Assembly (NCBI RefSeq): GCF_025869515.1
Contig: NZ_JAOZVR010000051.1
Location: forward strand, 1-64,000
Source: Ferrovibrio sp.
Lineage (GTDB): Bacteria; Pseudomonadota; Alphaproteobacteria; Ferrovibrionales; Ferrovibrionaceae
Direction: 5' to 3'
Length of the DNA: 64,000 nt
The first letter of the stretch is position 1, and each line of letters begins with the position of its first letter. Positions 14,155 through 21,785 of this stretch are shown in pieces. Under the pieces are notes generated by a model. It was not told where the DNA came from, did no database searches, and was given only the letters and a program-made list of their open reading frames with translations. The position numbers and the translations under genes are program-made.

Positions 14155-14640
14155 ATGCTGGATACGATTTTACAGGTCGCGGCGGTGGGCGCGGGCGCCA
14201 CGCTGGCGATGGATGCCTGGGGCCTGCTGCTGCGGCGGGTCTATGGCGTGGCCGGACTGGATTATCGCTTCGTCGGGCGCTGGCTCGGCCACCTGCCGCG
14301 CGGCCGTTTCCGCCACGATGGCATCGGCAAGTCGGCGCCGGTGGCGGGCGAGGTGCTGCTCGGCTGGGCCGCGCATTACGCCATCGGCATCGCCTTCGCC
14401 GCCGGCCTCGTTGCCATCCGTGGCGCCGACTGGCTGGCAACGCCGACGCCGGCGCCGGCTTTGCTGGCCGGGCTGGTCACCGTTGCCGCGCCGTATTTCG
14501 TGATGCAGCCGGCCTTCGGCATGGGCATCGCGTCATCGCGCACCCCCGATCCGACGGCGGCGCGGCTGCGCAGCCTGATCACCCATCTGGTGTTCGGCAC
14601 CGGGCTCTATCTCGCCGCACGGCTGATGGCGGCGCTGTGA
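14155..14640 (+). CDS. DUF2938 family membrane protein
   Basis: A 161-residue protein with about four hydrophobic segments and the DUF2938-like features ATLAMDAWGLLLRRV, FVGRWLGHLPRGRF and HYAIGIAFA. Function is unknown. It starts 36 bases after the SoxR-like promoter and is followed by a DUF2798 gene 31 bases on, so the pair forms a small redox-regulated membrane operon by inference. In other proteobacteria DUF2938 genes are often found next to MerR or AraC regulators. Confidence 0.78.
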   Translation: MLDTILQVAAVGAGATLAMDAWGLLLRRVYGVAGLDYRFVGRWLGHLPRGRFRHDGIGKSAPVAGEVLLGWAAHYAIGIAFAAGLVAIRGADWLATPTPAPALLAGLVTVAAPYFVMQPAFGMGIASSRTPDPTAARLRSLITHLVFGTGLYLAARLMAAL

Positions 14641-17085: not shown

Positions 17086-17114
17086 TAAGACTCGCTGTCA
17101 TCTGGCGGCGGATG

Positions 17115-17146
17115 AAAGGGCCGGGGCGCAAGCTCCGGCCTTTTTG
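17115..17146 (+). terminator. Terminator of rplM-rpsI
   Basis: GGCCGGGGC, loop GCAA, GCTCCGGCC forms a stable hairpin followed by TTTTTG and a second T-run. It lies 30 bases after rpsI. Confidence 0.88.
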
Positions 17147-17235
17147 CTTTTTTTAAGGATGTATGCATCGCCCAGCGGTGCTATGGCTGAAACGACTGCA
17201 ACGCTTTAGAATTGCAGCGCAAACGGAGTTTCGCG

Positions 17236-17787
17236 ATGGATGCCGAAGACGCATTGCTTCTGGTTGTGCCGGCGATGCTGGTGCTGCTCGCGGCCGGCGG
17301 TCTCGCCGGCTATATCGAAGCCGCGGTCTACCAGCTCTACGGCAGCGGCAGCGGCCCCGGCGATGCCACGCGCCAGGCGCAGATGCAGAGCGACTACAGC
17401 CGGCGCCGCACCGACTTCGCCGCCCTGCGCGACGAGAAGGCGCAGCTCGATGCCGATCTCGCCATGCTGATGAAGGACCGCGCCAACCTGCAGGACCAGG
17501 AACGCCGTCTCGCCGACCGGCAGAACAACCTGGTGGCGGAGGCCGGCTATCCGGCGCCGGGCACGCCGGGCTTCTATTTCCGCATCGAAGGCCCCGCCGC
17601 GGTGATGCCCTTTGCCGGGCTGGCCTCGGTGCCGACCGCGATGGGCGGCAAGCGCCGCGTGCGGCTGGTGGTCTGGGCCGGCAATATGGAAGCGGCGCAG
17701 GCACTGGCGGCGAACTGGGTCGGCGATGGCACCAAGATGATCGACAGCCGTGAATTCGCCGGCAAAGTCTTCTGGCACGAGGCCTGA
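17236..17787 (+). CDS. Membrane-anchored coiled-coil protein, module gene A1
   Basis: A 183-residue protein of no family known to me. Residues about 5-30 form a transmembrane helix (ALLLVVPAMLVLLAAGGLAG). Residues about 50-100 are a charged coiled coil (RDEKAQLDADLAMLMKDRAN, then LQDQERRLADRQ). Residues about 110-183 are a small globular domain with GFYFRIEGP and RRVRLVVWAGNMEAAQALA. GGAG lies 7 bases before the ATG at 17236. It resembles the protein at 18464 (shared MDAxD start, G[FW]Yx[RK][IL]xGP and RxVxVW-type positions). Its stop is 3 bases before gene B1. No function can be assigned. Confidence 0.8.
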   Translation: MDAEDALLLVVPAMLVLLAAGGLAGYIEAAVYQLYGSGSGPGDATRQAQMQSDYSRRRTDFAALRDEKAQLDADLAMLMKDRANLQDQERRLADRQNNLVAEAGYPAPGTPGFYFRIEGPAAVMPFAGLASVPTAMGGKRRVRLVVWAGNMEAAQALAANWVGDGTKMIDSREFAGKVFWHEA

Positions 17788-17790
17788 GCG

Positions 17791-18333
17791 ATGGCGGAGC
17801 TGCTCACCGCGCTGGCGGCGCTGATCGCGCTGCTGCTGTTCGGCCTGGCGCTGGCCATCGTGGTCGATCGTGCCCGCATGGGCTATCGCCGCGCCGAGTA
17901 TGAAAAGGCCATGCGACGCCAGGGCGAGCATGAACTCTCGATGCGGCTGGAACAGCTCGAACGCGCCATCGCCGAGCAGCGGCCGGCGATTGCCTCGGCG
18001 CGGCGTCAGTTCACCCAGATGCAGGACGAATGCGACGGGCTGAAGCGCCGGCTCGACAGCACCGAATATCCCTTCGCCTATACCGCCGTGCCGATGGAAA
18101 GCCGCGACATGTATGCGCGCTCCTGGCGCTTCTCCGCGCGCCATCCCAGCCTCGGCGCCGACCTGTCCGAAATCGAACCGGCCGGGCAGTGGGGGCAGGG
18201 ACGGCTCTATGTGGTGGCGGCCGAAAACCAGGCCGAGGCGCGCTCGCTGATGGATCGCCTGCTGCCGCGCCATCGCGGCTTCGTCGTGGTGACTGTGGGC
18301 GAGGCGCCGGCCGAGCCGCCGCCGCCGGCCTGA
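17791..18333 (+). CDS. Membrane-anchored coiled-coil protein, module gene B1
   Basis: A 180-residue unrecognised protein. A strong transmembrane helix at residues about 4-25 is followed by basic residues (DRARMGYRR), which by the positive-inside rule puts the C-terminus in the cytoplasm. A coiled coil spans about residues 38-90. The C-terminal domain has YPFAYTAV, YARSWRFSARHPSLGA and WGQGRLYVVAAENQAEA, and a proline-rich tail. These positions match the protein at 19014 (LPFGYTA, YRTWRVVVRNADLGA, WIEGRFYEVPAPNMEYA). It starts 3 bases after A1. Function unknown. Confidence 0.8.
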   Translation: MAELLTALAALIALLLFGLALAIVVDRARMGYRRAEYEKAMRRQGEHELSMRLEQLERAIAEQRPAIASARRQFTQMQDECDGLKRRLDSTEYPFAYTAVPMESRDMYARSWRFSARHPSLGADLSEIEPAGQWGQGRLYVVAAENQAEARSLMDRLLPRHRGFVVVTVGEAPAEPPPPA

Positions 18334-18463
18334 CATCAGTACGCCGCGTCCGAGTCGGCGCAACGCCCTGCTACCAGCGGTAAAACTCCGATTGATTTGA
18401 TACTGCCTTTGCCCGACAGTACCCGGAGGATCACTCTAGGGGGCATGGCCAGAGGCCGCCGGC

Positions 18464-19021
18464 ATGGACGCCGTCGACATCGTTTCCGCACTGCTGCCGT
18501 CGCTGCTGATGTTCTTCGCCGTCTCGCTCGGCGCGAACAGCCTGGAACGCTATGTCTTCAGTTATGCGCGCGGCCGTTTCCAGCTCGACCAGCTGGTCAG
18601 CGAGGCCGAGCAGCTGCGCAATCGGATGGCCGAGATCCGCGTCGACTACGACAAGCTGCAGGAAGACAAGGCCCGGCTCGAGTTACACCTGAGCGAACGC
18701 CAGAACACCTATGGCGGGATGATGGCGCGCGAGGTCGAATTCAGCGACGCGCGCAACATGGTGATCTACGAGGTCGGCACGCCCAGGCCGCATCACACCG
18801 GCTGGTATGTCAAGCTGATCGGCCCCGAGATGCACGAGATGTTCAGCGGCCCCGGTTCGGGCGTGTCGGCGTTTCCCGGCCGCCGCACCGCGCGGGTGGT
18901 GATGTGGGGCATCGAAGACGAGCATATGGCGCGGCTGCGCACCAAGAAGATTTTCGGCGCGCTGTCGGAAGTCATGCTGATCCGTCCGTTCAACGGCAAG
19001 ATCAGGCTCGGCGATGTCTGA
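18464..19021 (+). CDS. Membrane-anchored coiled-coil protein, module gene A2
   Basis: A 185-residue unrecognised protein, paralogous to the protein at 17236. It starts MDAVD, has a transmembrane helix at residues about 5-25, a coiled coil at about 38-85 (SEAEQLRNRMAEIRVDYDKL, then QEDKARLELHLSERQ), and a C-terminal domain with GWYVKLIGP and RRTARVVMWGIEDEHMA. The 130-base gap before it is the longest in the cassette and could hold a promoter. AGAGG lies 8 bases before the ATG. Its end overlaps gene B2 by 8 bases. Confidence 0.8.
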   Translation: MDAVDIVSALLPSLLMFFAVSLGANSLERYVFSYARGRFQLDQLVSEAEQLRNRMAEIRVDYDKLQEDKARLELHLSERQNTYGGMMAREVEFSDARNMVIYEVGTPRPHHTGWYVKLIGPEMHEMFSGPGSGVSAFPGRRTARVVMWGIEDEHMARLRTKKIFGALSEVMLIRPFNGKIRLGDV

Positions 19022-19610
19022 GATTTCCATCACCCAGTTCATCGGCATCCTGGCCGCGGCTGCCAATATCGGCATCGCGGTGATGATCATCATCCTGCTC
19101 GGCGAGCGCAGCCATGCCGCCTGGACCCGCGTGCGCCTGAAGGCCGAGGAACTGACCGGCGTCAAGGAAGACTTCGCACGCCAGGTCGAGGATGCGGTGA
19201 AGGCCGTGCAGACGCTGCATGAAAGCATCGCCGATCTGAAGAACCAGGTGACGCGCGCCGAACAGGATCTTGAATCGCTGACCAGGCGACACAAGGAAAC
19301 CGACCTGCCGTTCGGCTACACCGCCACCATCGTGGATATCGTGGACCGCCGCTACCGCACCTGGCGCGTGGTGGTGCGCAATGCCGATCTCGGCGCCCAG
19401 GCCGGCTCGTTCAGCCATCCGGCGCATAAATGGATCGAGGGCCGCTTCTACGAAGTGCCGGCGCCCAACATGGAATACGCCGTGCAGGCGATGCAGCAGC
19501 GGTTCCTGCTGCGCGACGGCTTCACCGTCGATCCGGCGCCCTTGCGCGGCAGTGTCGCCGAGGCGCCTGCGCCGGCGGCGAGCCTCGAGGCGGCGATCAG
19601 CGCGATCTAG
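19014..19610 (+). CDS. Membrane-anchored coiled-coil protein, module gene B2
   Basis: A 198-residue unrecognised protein, paralogous to the protein at 17791. A transmembrane helix at residues about 8-30 is followed by basic residues (ERSHAAWTRVRLK). A coiled coil covers about residues 40-93. The C-terminal domain carries LPFGYTATIVD, YRTWRVVVRNADLGA and WIEGRFYEVPAPNMEYAVQA, then an alanine-proline tail. The start lies inside the end of A2 (8-base overlap), so translation is coupled. Its stop overlaps the stop of the convergent VWA gene by 4 bases. Confidence 0.8.
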   Translation: MSEISITQFIGILAAAANIGIAVMIIILLGERSHAAWTRVRLKAEELTGVKEDFARQVEDAVKAVQTLHESIADLKNQVTRAEQDLESLTRRHKETDLPFGYTATIVDIVDRRYRTWRVVVRNADLGAQAGSFSHPAHKWIEGRFYEVPAPNMEYAVQAMQQRFLLRDGFTVDPAPLRGSVAEAPAPAASLEAAISAI

Positions 19611-20791
19611 CGGTTCAGCTCTTTCATCCCGCGTTCCAGGCCTTCGAGGGTGAGCGGGAACATGCGGTTGCCCATCAGCTGGCGGACCACCCCGACCGAC
19701 GGCGTGAAGTCCCAGTATTTTTCCTGCACCGGGTTGAGCCAGATCGCCTTCGGATAGGTATCCAGCAGGCGCTGCAGCCACACCGCGCCGGCTTCCTCGT
19801 TCCAGTGCTCGACGCTGCCGCCGGGCTGCACGATCTCGTAAGGCGACATGGTGGCGTCGCCGACGAAGACCAGCTTGTAGTCATGCTGGTAGGTGCGCAG
19901 CATCTCGAAGGTCGGCGTGAAATCGGCATGCCGGCGGCGATTGTCCTTCCACAGCTTCTCGTAGACGCAATTGTGGAAGTAGAAGAATTCCATATGCTTG
20001 AATTCGGCGCGCGCCGCCGAGAACAGCTCCTCGGTGATACGGATATGATCGTCCATCGAGCCGCCGATATCGAACAGCAGCAGCACCTTCACCTTGTTAT
20101 GCCGCTCGGGCACCATCTTGATGTCGAGATAGCCGGCATTGGCCGCCGTCGACTTGATGGTGTCGGGCAGGTCGAGTTCCAGGTCGGCGCCGTCGCGGGC
20201 GAATTTGCGCAGGCGGCGCATCGCCACCTTGATGTTGCGGGTGCCGAGCTCGACGCTGTCGTCCAGGTTCTTGTATTCGCGCTTGTCCCACACCTTCACG
20301 GCGCGGCGGTTGCGCGACTTGTCCTGGCCGATGCGCACGCCTTCGGGATTGTAACCATAGGCGCCGAAGGGTGAGGTGCCGGCGGTACCGATCCACTTGC
20401 TGCCGCCCTGGTGGCGGCCCTTCTGCTCTTCGAGGCGCTGCTTCAGCGTCTCCATCAGCTTGTCCCAGCCGCCGAGCGCCTCGATCTGCGCCATTTCCTC
20501 CGGGGTCAGAACCTTCTCGGCCAGTTTGCGCAGCCATTCCTCCGGGATTTCGGCGGTGATCTCGGCGCCGGCGCCGACGGACTGCAGGCCGTTGAAACAC
20601 TGGCCGAAGACGCGGTCGAATTTGTCGAGGTTGCGCTCGTCCTTCACCAGCGCGGTACGCGACAGGTAATAGAAATCCTCGACGCGATATTCGGGCACGC
20701 CCTTGTCCATCGCCTCGATCAGCGTGAGATATTCCCGCAGCGTGGCGGGCACCTTGGCCTTGCGCAGTTCGAGGAAGAAGTTGATGAACAT
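19607..20791 (-). CDS. VWA-domain protein, CoxE-like (COG3825 type)
   Basis: A 394-residue protein without signal peptide. The N-terminal 200 residues are the charged helical region typical of CoxE-like proteins (starting FINFFLELRKAKVPATLREY). The von Willebrand A domain follows with the metal-site motif DIGGSMDD, a DxGxS variant of the usual DxSxS, then LVFVGDATMSPYEI. It pairs with the upstream MoxR-type ATPase, 33 bases away; such pairs act as chaperones that insert metals or remodel protein complexes. The target here is unknown. It converges on the four-gene membrane cassette. Confidence 0.88.
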   Translation of the reverse strand: MFINFFLELRKAKVPATLREYLTLIEAMDKGVPEYRVEDFYYLSRTALVKDERNLDKFDRVFGQCFNGLQSVGAGAEITAEIPEEWLRKLAEKVLTPEEMAQIEALGGWDKLMETLKQRLEEQKGRHQGGSKWIGTAGTSPFGAYGYNPEGVRIGQDKSRNRRAVKVWDKREYKNLDDSVELGTRNIKVAMRRLRKFARDGADLELDLPDTIKSTAANAGYLDIKMVPERHNKVKVLLLFDIGGSMDDHIRITEELFSAARAEFKHMEFFYFHNCVYEKLWKDNRRRHADFTPTFEMLRTYQHDYKLVFVGDATMSPYEIVQPGGSVEHWNEEAGAVWLQRLLDTYPKAIWLNPVQEKYWDFTPSVGVVRQLMGNRMFPLTLEGLERGMKELNR

Positions 20792-20824
20792 GCCAGCTCT
20801 CCTGGGCGGCCTCGTCTCTAAGGC

Positions 20825-21670
20825 TTAGTTCCGCTCACGGCGCGCGATGAAGGCGAGCCGCTCAAACAGATGCACATCCTGCTCGTTCTTCAGCAGCGCG
20901 CCGGCCAGCGGCGGAATCAGCTTGCCCTGGTCCTTGCTGCGCAACGCATCGGCCGGCAGGTCTTCGGCCATCAGCAGCTTGAGCCAGTCGAGCAGTTCCG
21001 AGGTGGACGGCTTCTTCTTCAGGCCGGGCGTCTCGCGGATATCGTAGAAGACATTCAGCGCATCGCGCAGCAGGTTTTTCTGCACGCCGGGATAATGCAC
21101 CTCGACGATCTCTTCCATCGTCTCGCGTTCGGGGAAACGGATGTAGTGGAAGAAGCAGCGGCGCAGGAAGGCGTCGGGCAGTTCCTTCTCGTTGTTCGAG
21201 GTGATGATGATGATCGGCCGCACGCTGGCCTTCACGGTCTCGTTCGTCTCGTAGACGAAGAATTCCATGCGGTCGAGTTCGAGCAGCAGGTCGTTGGGGA
21301 ATTCGATATCGGCCTTGTCGATCTCGTCGATCAGCAGCACCGGGCGCTGCGGCGCCGTGAAGGCATCCCACAGCTTGCCCTTCTTGATGTAGTTGCGGAT
21401 ATCCTTGACGCGCTCGTCGCCGAGCTGGCTGTCGCGCAGGCGCGACACGGCATCGTATTCGTACAGGCCCTGCTGGGCCTTGGTGGTGGATTTGACATGC
21501 CAGGTGAGGAGCGGGGCGTTCAGCGCCCGGGCGATCTCGATGGCCAGCACGGTCTTGCCGGTGCCCGGTTCGCCCTTCACCAGCAGGGGCCGCTCCAGCG
21601 CGATCGCGGCATTCACCGCCACCTTGAGATCGTTGGTGGCGACGTAGGATTCGGTACCCTTGAACTTCAT
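20825..21670 (-). CDS. MoxR-family AAA+ ATPase
   Basis: A 281-residue AAA+ ATPase. The Walker A motif is GEPGTGKT near residues 34-41, Walker B is VLLIDEIDKAD, and the sensor region TSNNEKELPDAFLRRC follows. The ATG at 21670 begins the conserved segment KFKGTESYVAT; the frame is open 42 bases further upstream but without support. It precedes the VWA gene on the same strand, the standard MoxR-VWA arrangement, and acts as a cytoplasmic chaperone-like ATPase. Confidence 0.92.
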   Translation of the reverse strand: MKFKGTESYVATNDLKVAVNAAIALERPLLVKGEPGTGKTVLAIEIARALNAPLLTWHVKSTTKAQQGLYEYDAVSRLRDSQLGDERVKDIRNYIKKGKLWDAFTAPQRPVLLIDEIDKADIEFPNDLLLELDRMEFFVYETNETVKASVRPIIIITSNNEKELPDAFLRRCFFHYIRFPERETMEEIVEVHYPGVQKNLLRDALNVFYDIRETPGLKKKPSTSELLDWLKLLMAEDLPADALRSKDQGKLIPPLAGALLKNEQDVHLFERLAFIARRERN

Positions 21671-21785
21671 TGCGGTTTTCCCGGAGTCTGCAAATGAACA
21701 GTGTCGGGACAAACGCTAGGTCGCGCCCCGGCAGGGCGCAAGCCGTGACGTTACGTCAATGCAGCAGCCGCGACCGCAGGTCGCT

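Follow-up and report, generated by a model that had tools for sequence, protein, structure and literature searches.

The described systems closest to the genes reported here are the membrane protein pairs PilN/PilO of the type IVa pilus and GspL/GspM of type II secretion, whose genes are adjacent in each case. In the published account, PilN and PilO have short cytoplasmic N-termini, a single transmembrane (TM) helix, a periplasmic coiled coil and a ferredoxin-like core, and form heterodimers (PMC5805733); GspL/GspM are treated in a second article (PMC6233222). Here, we analyze four adjacent genes, A1-B1-A2-B2, in a 64,000-nucleotide (nt) stretch of Ferrovibrio sp., hereafter the window (positions 1 to 64,000 of contig NZ_JAOZVR010000051.1, labeled C51 in genome G000; G, C and L numbers denote genomes, contigs and loci). 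The products of these genes resemble PilN/PilO and GspL/GspM in being a related pair of single-TM proteins that carry a coiled coil and, at the C-terminus, a small alpha/beta domain. They differ in their inverted predicted topology, another order of structural elements and many copies per genome, and they show neither a family match nor recognised pilus or secretion neighbors. The A-B family is not placed with PilN/PilO, from which it departs in its predicted orientation, its lack of a match to the sequence models and its gene context. Sequence comparison indicates that the A-B pairs of Alphaproteobacteria are a genuine and conserved family, unnamed and present in multiple copies.

Architecture and paralogy of the four genes

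The initial annotation of the window had matched A1 with A2 and B1 with B2 by eye. BLASTP agrees: A1 and A2 share 27% identity over 181 columns (E 9e-19) and B1 and B2 29% over 173 columns (E 1e-19), whereas the negative controls A1/B1 and A2/B2 gave no significant match (E 4.2 and 7.0). All four open reading frames lie where that annotation placed them, and the motifs it quoted are all present, with one slip in spacing (YxxxWR in B1, YxxWR in B2). Hydropathy identifies a single TM-like stretch in each protein and no second one, and each has the C-terminal domain; the coiled coil ascribed to all four stands for B2 (0/1000 shuffles with a heptad periodicity as good), less firmly for A2 (34/1000), and is weak in A1 and B1. 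Identity between the two pairs is only 25-27%, so the duplication in the window is old. The pairs are under purifying selection, with ratios of nonsynonymous to synonymous substitution (dN/dS) of 0.17-0.34 for three pairs between near species and of 0.33-0.64 against the more distant G008.

A and B as sister families with a shared domain

Profile typing with held-out lineages agrees with gene order for 75/76 genes, the sole miss being the A gene of G286_C26, and 38/38 pairs are A-first. In a joint tree, A is split from B with no sequence misplaced (support 0.944), and the window genes match the profile of their own type at 4e-52 to 2e-54. By held-out typing and the joint tree, A and B parted before the lineage expansions, and both were kept; they are two old sister families. 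Trees of A, of B and of A+B, covering 38 of the 42 complete pairs described below (G009, L174, L176 and L182 were left out), each separate the Ferrovibrio pairs from the rest at 100% support and share several pair groupings; G115_130 and G262 shift between them, and the branching of Ferrovibrio pairs 0, 2 and 3 has a support of 60-65 in the A+B tree. In a test of 26 pairs, distances among A proteins correlate with those among B proteins, with r 0.99 for 16 Ferrovibrio pairs and 0.92 for 13 pairs from G000 and the distant genomes (0/5000 permutations each). The gene pair evidently duplicates as a unit. A partnership of A with B is well supported by sequence, far more so once relatives are included, and their physical pairing is likely; the two heteromeric A-B complexes proposed in the initial annotation are putative.

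A further proposal had been that the C-terminal domains of A and B belong to one family. It finds no support in the Ferrovibrio proteins alone (11/100 column shuffles as good) and needs the distant pairs: domain profiles from adjacent pairs only (26 A and 24 B domains, stand-alone domains being excluded as a possible bridge) match at 96.9% in hhalign, with 0/100 column shuffles as good. Structure prediction gave the same element order for the A2 and B2 domains, not unrelated folds. The best of five AlphaFold2 models for each, from alignments of only 7 and 8 sequences, runs strand, short helix, strand, helix, strand, with a second short helix added in B2. Its mean predicted local distance difference test (pLDDT) score is 82.5 for A2 (other four models, 41-71) and 67 for B2 (core blocks 70-83; other four models, 55-60). 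That A and B share one small alpha/beta domain, predicted as beta-(helix)-beta-alpha-beta, is well supported by alignments and models. The A domain starts with a nearly invariant E-x-G.

The Ferrovibrio alignments hold 16/18 A and 17/19 B proteins (G003 and G009 are identical, G004 and G007 near-identical). The extended B profile (A3) comprises 5/19 Ferrovibrio and 9/10 distant B proteins, the extended A profile (A4) 4/18 and 9/10 A proteins, and the domain alignment (A7) 35/68 domain sequences.

Pairs within Ferrovibrio

A and B are present in 10/10 genomes of the genus, with 18 complete pairs: one each in G003, G004, G006, G007 and G009, two in G008, three each in G000, G002 and G005, and two plus a half pair in G001, where L054 was counted as one complete pair. 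The initial annotation had described a tandem of two pairs. Its A-B-A-B order holds, and its count falls short, as G000 carries three pairs and one solo member; its scale was also too small, the locus belonging to a multi-copy family rather than forming one tandem. The genes rplM-rpsI lie directly upstream of the pair or tandem in all 8 other genus genomes whose contig reaches that far. Among other genera of Ferrovibrionaceae, 0/8 genomes match A2 or B2 at E <= 0.001; one of these, G013, contains a domain-only frame.

Solo members with TM helix, helical zone and domain but without a partner occur at four loci. Three of these (L164-L166) are from three Ferrovibrio-genus genomes and have similar neighbors, and the fourth (L181) is from G061. 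By eye, their domain is closest to that of the stand-alone proteins described below.

Pairs and relatives beyond the genus

Membership was assigned by a match that reaches the C-terminal domain, not the helical zone alone, and the class profile searches were limited to 10 scored candidates in each genome, so that counts are lower bounds. With the Ferrovibrio A profile, no full-length member came up outside the genus: of 337 class genomes, four match, namely three of the genus and G208, where the match is confined to the helical zone. The Ferrovibrio B profile found weak relatives, and at 10/10 full-length loci read, the preceding gene has the same build. With the extended profiles, full-length A and B members were found in at least 10/337 class genomes (three Ferrovibrio, G068, G191, G286, G115, G292, G262, and G061 with a solo member). 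The extended B profile matches 74/337 class and 65/249 phylum genomes, mostly in the helical zone only.

Profiles and reading together yield at least 24 pairs, spread over six genomes that belong to four further families of Alphaproteobacteria: at least six in G115, where one partner (L182) was recognised by build only, at least five each in G191, G286 and G068, at least two in G292 and at least one in G262. Pairs thus recur in other alphaproteobacteria, and the total is at least 42 complete A-B loci in 16 genomes (39 by script; L174, L176 and L182 by reading), 18 of them in the 10 Ferrovibrio-genus genomes. Near one pair (L176), lysozyme-like and other phage-like frames were seen by eye.

A B protein of G068 matches 12 plasmids of Azospirillum, a soil bacterium used in the laboratory, at 27-77% identity, in all cases as an annotated hypothetical protein, and G068, G191 and G286 share one family, which on account of these matches is probably Azospirillaceae. 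Two of the 12 plasmids are rated mobilizable. The three plasmids that were opened carry A and B genes side by side, typed correctly by the profiles and showing the charge pattern described below: AMK58_RS27225/27230 (A. brasilense Sp7), AZL_RS31405/31410 (B510) and AZOLI_RS28095/28100 (A. lipoferum 4B). The two genes overlap by 4 nt in B510 and Sp7 and are separated by 28 nt in 4B. These pairs are true members of the A-B family, with no function annotated. A2 and four other queries gave no plasmid match.

Domain-only frames of about 70-140 residues are present in at least 17/337 class genomes; seven, from five genomes, were read, and three that were scanned gave no library match above cut-off. 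The phylum set comprises 249 genomes, of which at least 46 belong to other classes. In this set, no A3 match outside the window's genome extends past model position 149 of 180, and the domain profile matches 2/249, the window's genome and one other alphaproteobacterium.

Comparison with databases and literature

No library assigns any of the four proteins to a known family, in keeping with the initial annotation, which knew of no described system of this form. Pfam, NCBIfam, PHROGs and PADLOC gave weak matches only, mostly to the coiled coil. Profile searches of the PDB gave coiled-coil and other weak matches for the full-length profiles (best E 0.098 and 0.0039) and six non-significant matches for the domain. 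Foldseek found nothing at E <= 0.001 for the A or B domain in the PDB, or for the A domain among viral models. Weak Foldseek likenesses were to 4iit_B, a chain of the PaaABC subcomplex, and to the ribosomal chains 4v9f_6 and 9znf_AO (TM-score by target 0.54-0.57), and the domain has a local sequence match to the T7 gene 2 protein (2wnm). None of these is significant (E 1.1, 3.5, 3.5 and 0.42), and the proteins are soluble and not known as pairs. We take 4iit_B to be PaaB, the ribosomal chains to be LX and gene 2 to be that of T7, all presumably beta-beta-alpha-beta. One stand-alone member matches DpnD/PcfM-like (PF14207) at E 0.0048, over 22 residues only and with 17.3 bits against a cut-off of 25.

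Two phage queries, B2 and one stand-alone protein, gave no match, and a phage origin was set aside on that basis; a defence role was set aside given that PADLOC offered no family beyond weak matches. Among the articles listed for Ferrovibrio and for Azospirillum, none describes the family, and the tags and accessions of the three Azospirillum A genes gave no article, most subscription journals being outside the scope of the search.

The locus and its surroundings

In the window, A1-B1-A2-B2 is flanked by rplM-rpsI upstream and by an opposite-strand VWA_CoxE/AAA gene pair (Table 1). A terminator-like hairpin 3' of rpsI is the likely upstream boundary of a putative A1-B2 unit; the hairpin scan alone is not evidence for this, because it found 2 such sites against 1.8 expected in shuffles. 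For A1, the ATG at 17236 is preferred as start over the TTG at 17212, since the orthologues of G002 and G005 align from the ATG and a CGGAG lies 7 nt upstream; the TTG would add a basic N-terminus. The VWA gene adjoins pairs in 8/9 rpsI-site loci from other genus genomes (the G006 locus is without a match), and in G001 it flanks the pair locus on the other side. Pfam, run on seven window neighbors, identifies a DUF2938 protein (E 5e-61). Pentapeptide-repeat frames lie just past the window end and near two kinds of pair locus elsewhere. This proximity is weak evidence and may be due to chance, because these genomes are very rich in such proteins (122 repeat matches throughout G000).

Table 1. 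Positions of the A-B genes, their parts and other features. Coordinates without a label refer to the window; K/R, lysine and arginine residues.
Feature	Position	Strand	Remarks
Terminator-like hairpin 3' of rpsI	17113-17146	+	15-pair stem, then T run
A1	17236-17787	+	TM, helical zone, C-terminal domain; 183 residues; orthologues in G002, G005, G008
A1 TM helix	17251-17307	+	residues 6-24; Kyte-Doolittle 2.51; K/R 0 before, 0 in 15 residues after (tie)
A1 C-terminal domain	17509-17784	+	from alignment; domain-profile match E 2.4e-4, weakest among the genome's seven
B1	17791-18333	+	TM, helical zone, C-terminal domain; 180 residues; start 3 nt past A1 stop
B1 TM helix	17809-17865	+	residues 7-25; hydropathy 3.01; K/R 0 before, 5 in 15 residues after
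B1 C-terminal domain	18043-18309	+	from alignment; profile match E 8e-18
A2	18464-19021	+	TM, coiled coil, C-terminal domain; 185 residues
A2 TM helix	18479-18535	+	residues 6-24; hydropathy 2.13; K/R 0 before, 3 after
A2 C-terminal domain	18743-19018	+	predicted beta-helix-beta-alpha-beta (AlphaFold2)
B2	19014-19610	+	TM, coiled coil, C-terminal domain; 198 residues; 8-nt overlap with A2
B2 TM helix	19041-19097	+	residues 10-28; hydropathy 2.63; K/R 0 before, 4 after
B2 C-terminal domain	19290-19556	+	predicted beta-helix-beta-alpha-beta (AlphaFold2)
Third pair of G000	C93:105873-106424 and about 106441-106989
Solo relative in G000	C111:25216-25590
Solo members	L164:5094-5594, L165:5111-5617, L166:5315-5875, L181:5772-6311		no partner
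Stand-alone domain proteins	L082:6389-6742, L083:6536-6841, L085:6490-6903, L086:6727-6963		about 70-138 residues; alphaproteobacteria
VWA_CoxE-domain gene and AAA ATPase gene	19607-21712	-
DUF2938 protein	14155-14640	+
Pentapeptide-repeat frames past window end	G000:C51:64394-66585		460 and 347 residues
Pentapeptide-repeat proteins near pairs	L177:7258-8550, L168:9243-10556, L184:3533-4726
Phage-like frames near a pair	L176:8581-9444		lysozyme-like and others

Membrane topology and proposed mechanism

All four window proteins have no K/R before the TM helix. Among 56 members, a count that includes near-identical rows, 50 have more K/R after the TM helix than before it, none shows the reverse, and six, including A1, are ties. 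By the positive-inside rule, the helical zone and domain are thus predicted to be cytoplasmic, and the pattern speaks against a signal peptide that is cleaved off.

With about an even chance of being right, we propose that the A-B pair is an obligate heteromeric inner-membrane module that would act as a cytoplasm-facing docking scaffold for a client. The N-terminus would lie outside and the whole remainder beyond the TM helix in the cytoplasm, where A and B would be joined through their helical zones in a parallel coiled coil, which would keep an A-type and a B-type domain at a set distance from the membrane. Because no catalytic pattern was recognised in the domains, we infer that they may serve as docking surfaces and bring a cytoplasmic client to the membrane. 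The paralogous pairs, three in G000 and up to six elsewhere, might serve different clients, and the stand-alone domain of other alphaproteobacteria could represent that same docking unit in free form.

Several observations weigh against this scaffold. A1 and B1 show only a weak heptad periodicity, with 211/1000 and 251/1000 shuffles as good. The orientation rests on a rule of thumb for which A1 is a tie. The A frame of L174, among the pairs of G191, G286 and G068, is short and lacks a TM stretch, and L180 was read by the script as two A genes, where held-out typing gives A then B. The five G115 pairs alone show no significant distance correlation (408/5000 permutations), and elsewhere much of the correlation follows from shared duplication history. 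At 34 loci read by eye, neighbors vary by lineage and none is conserved so as to indicate a client. Finally, the build is not strictly pair-dependent, since solo members exist (L164-L166, L181) and no partner was found for the pair-type member L178.

The last observation also fits a relic, in which A and B would be homomeric or independent and their adjacency left over from an old tandem duplication of one gene. Their common domain and architecture make single-gene duplication a likely origin of A and B. However, a relic would often lose one partner, yet A and B had split before the lineage expansions and almost every copy retains both types, and the other half-pairs, at L183 and in G001 (pair 1, at L054), are truncated by contig ends; we regard this reading as rather unlikely. 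A heterodimeric platform that faces the periplasm in the manner of PilN/PilO or GspL/GspM, with a cytoplasmic N-terminus and a periplasmic coiled coil and domain, is suggested by the very similar build in the published accounts (PMC5805733, PMC6233222), and there are very weak matches to a GspM model (E 0.044 and 0.75; 13.4 and 9.4 bits, where the cut-off is 60). It is nevertheless quite improbable: the charge pattern predicts the opposite orientation in 50 of the 56 members and this one in none, the remaining six being ties, and the predicted fold is beta-helix-beta-alpha-beta rather than two alpha-beta-beta units, albeit from shallow alignments and, for B, a model of moderate confidence. Moreover, among the matches listed for 14 proteins (for one, the best 25 of 34), none is to PilN, PilO, GspL or GspM of Pfam at E <= 1, and no pil or gsp genes were recognised by eye at the 34 loci, with Pfam also run on the seven window neighbors.

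As a membrane sensor or gate, the pair would sense envelope or lipid state through its TM bundle and relay it through the cytoplasmic domains. The weak fold matches of the A domain do include ACT and MgtC C-terminal domains, but none is significant (best E 0.05), and the window proteins have fewer than 10 residues ahead of the TM helix, leaving no room for a periplasmic sensor; this is unlikely. The two-gene, overlapping, multi-copy arrangement, found also on large Azospirillum plasmids of which 2/12 are rated mobilizable, recalls a selfish, toxin-antitoxin-like or defence cassette. Against such a cassette, which we consider extremely improbable, stand the constant ribosomal-gene site in the genus, the purifying selection, the PADLOC and PHROG matches that are only weak and mostly in the helical zone, and the lack of a match for either phage query.

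Discussion

On a broader, tentative view, which we hold as possible but doubtful, the pairs would represent an undescribed class of two-component, cytoplasm-facing scaffolds, with one platform and client per pair and with free soluble domains: a cytoplasmic mirror image of PilN/PilO, expanded by whole-pair duplication. No family in Pfam, NCBIfam, PHROGs, PADLOC or the PDB fits, and yet the pair is kept in 10/10 Ferrovibrio-genus genomes, and three genomes of probable Azospirillaceae carry at least five pairs each. The co-duplication of both partners would make the family a natural case for the upkeep of specificity between paralogous heteromers, and the named Azospirillum pairs make the pairing claim directly testable.

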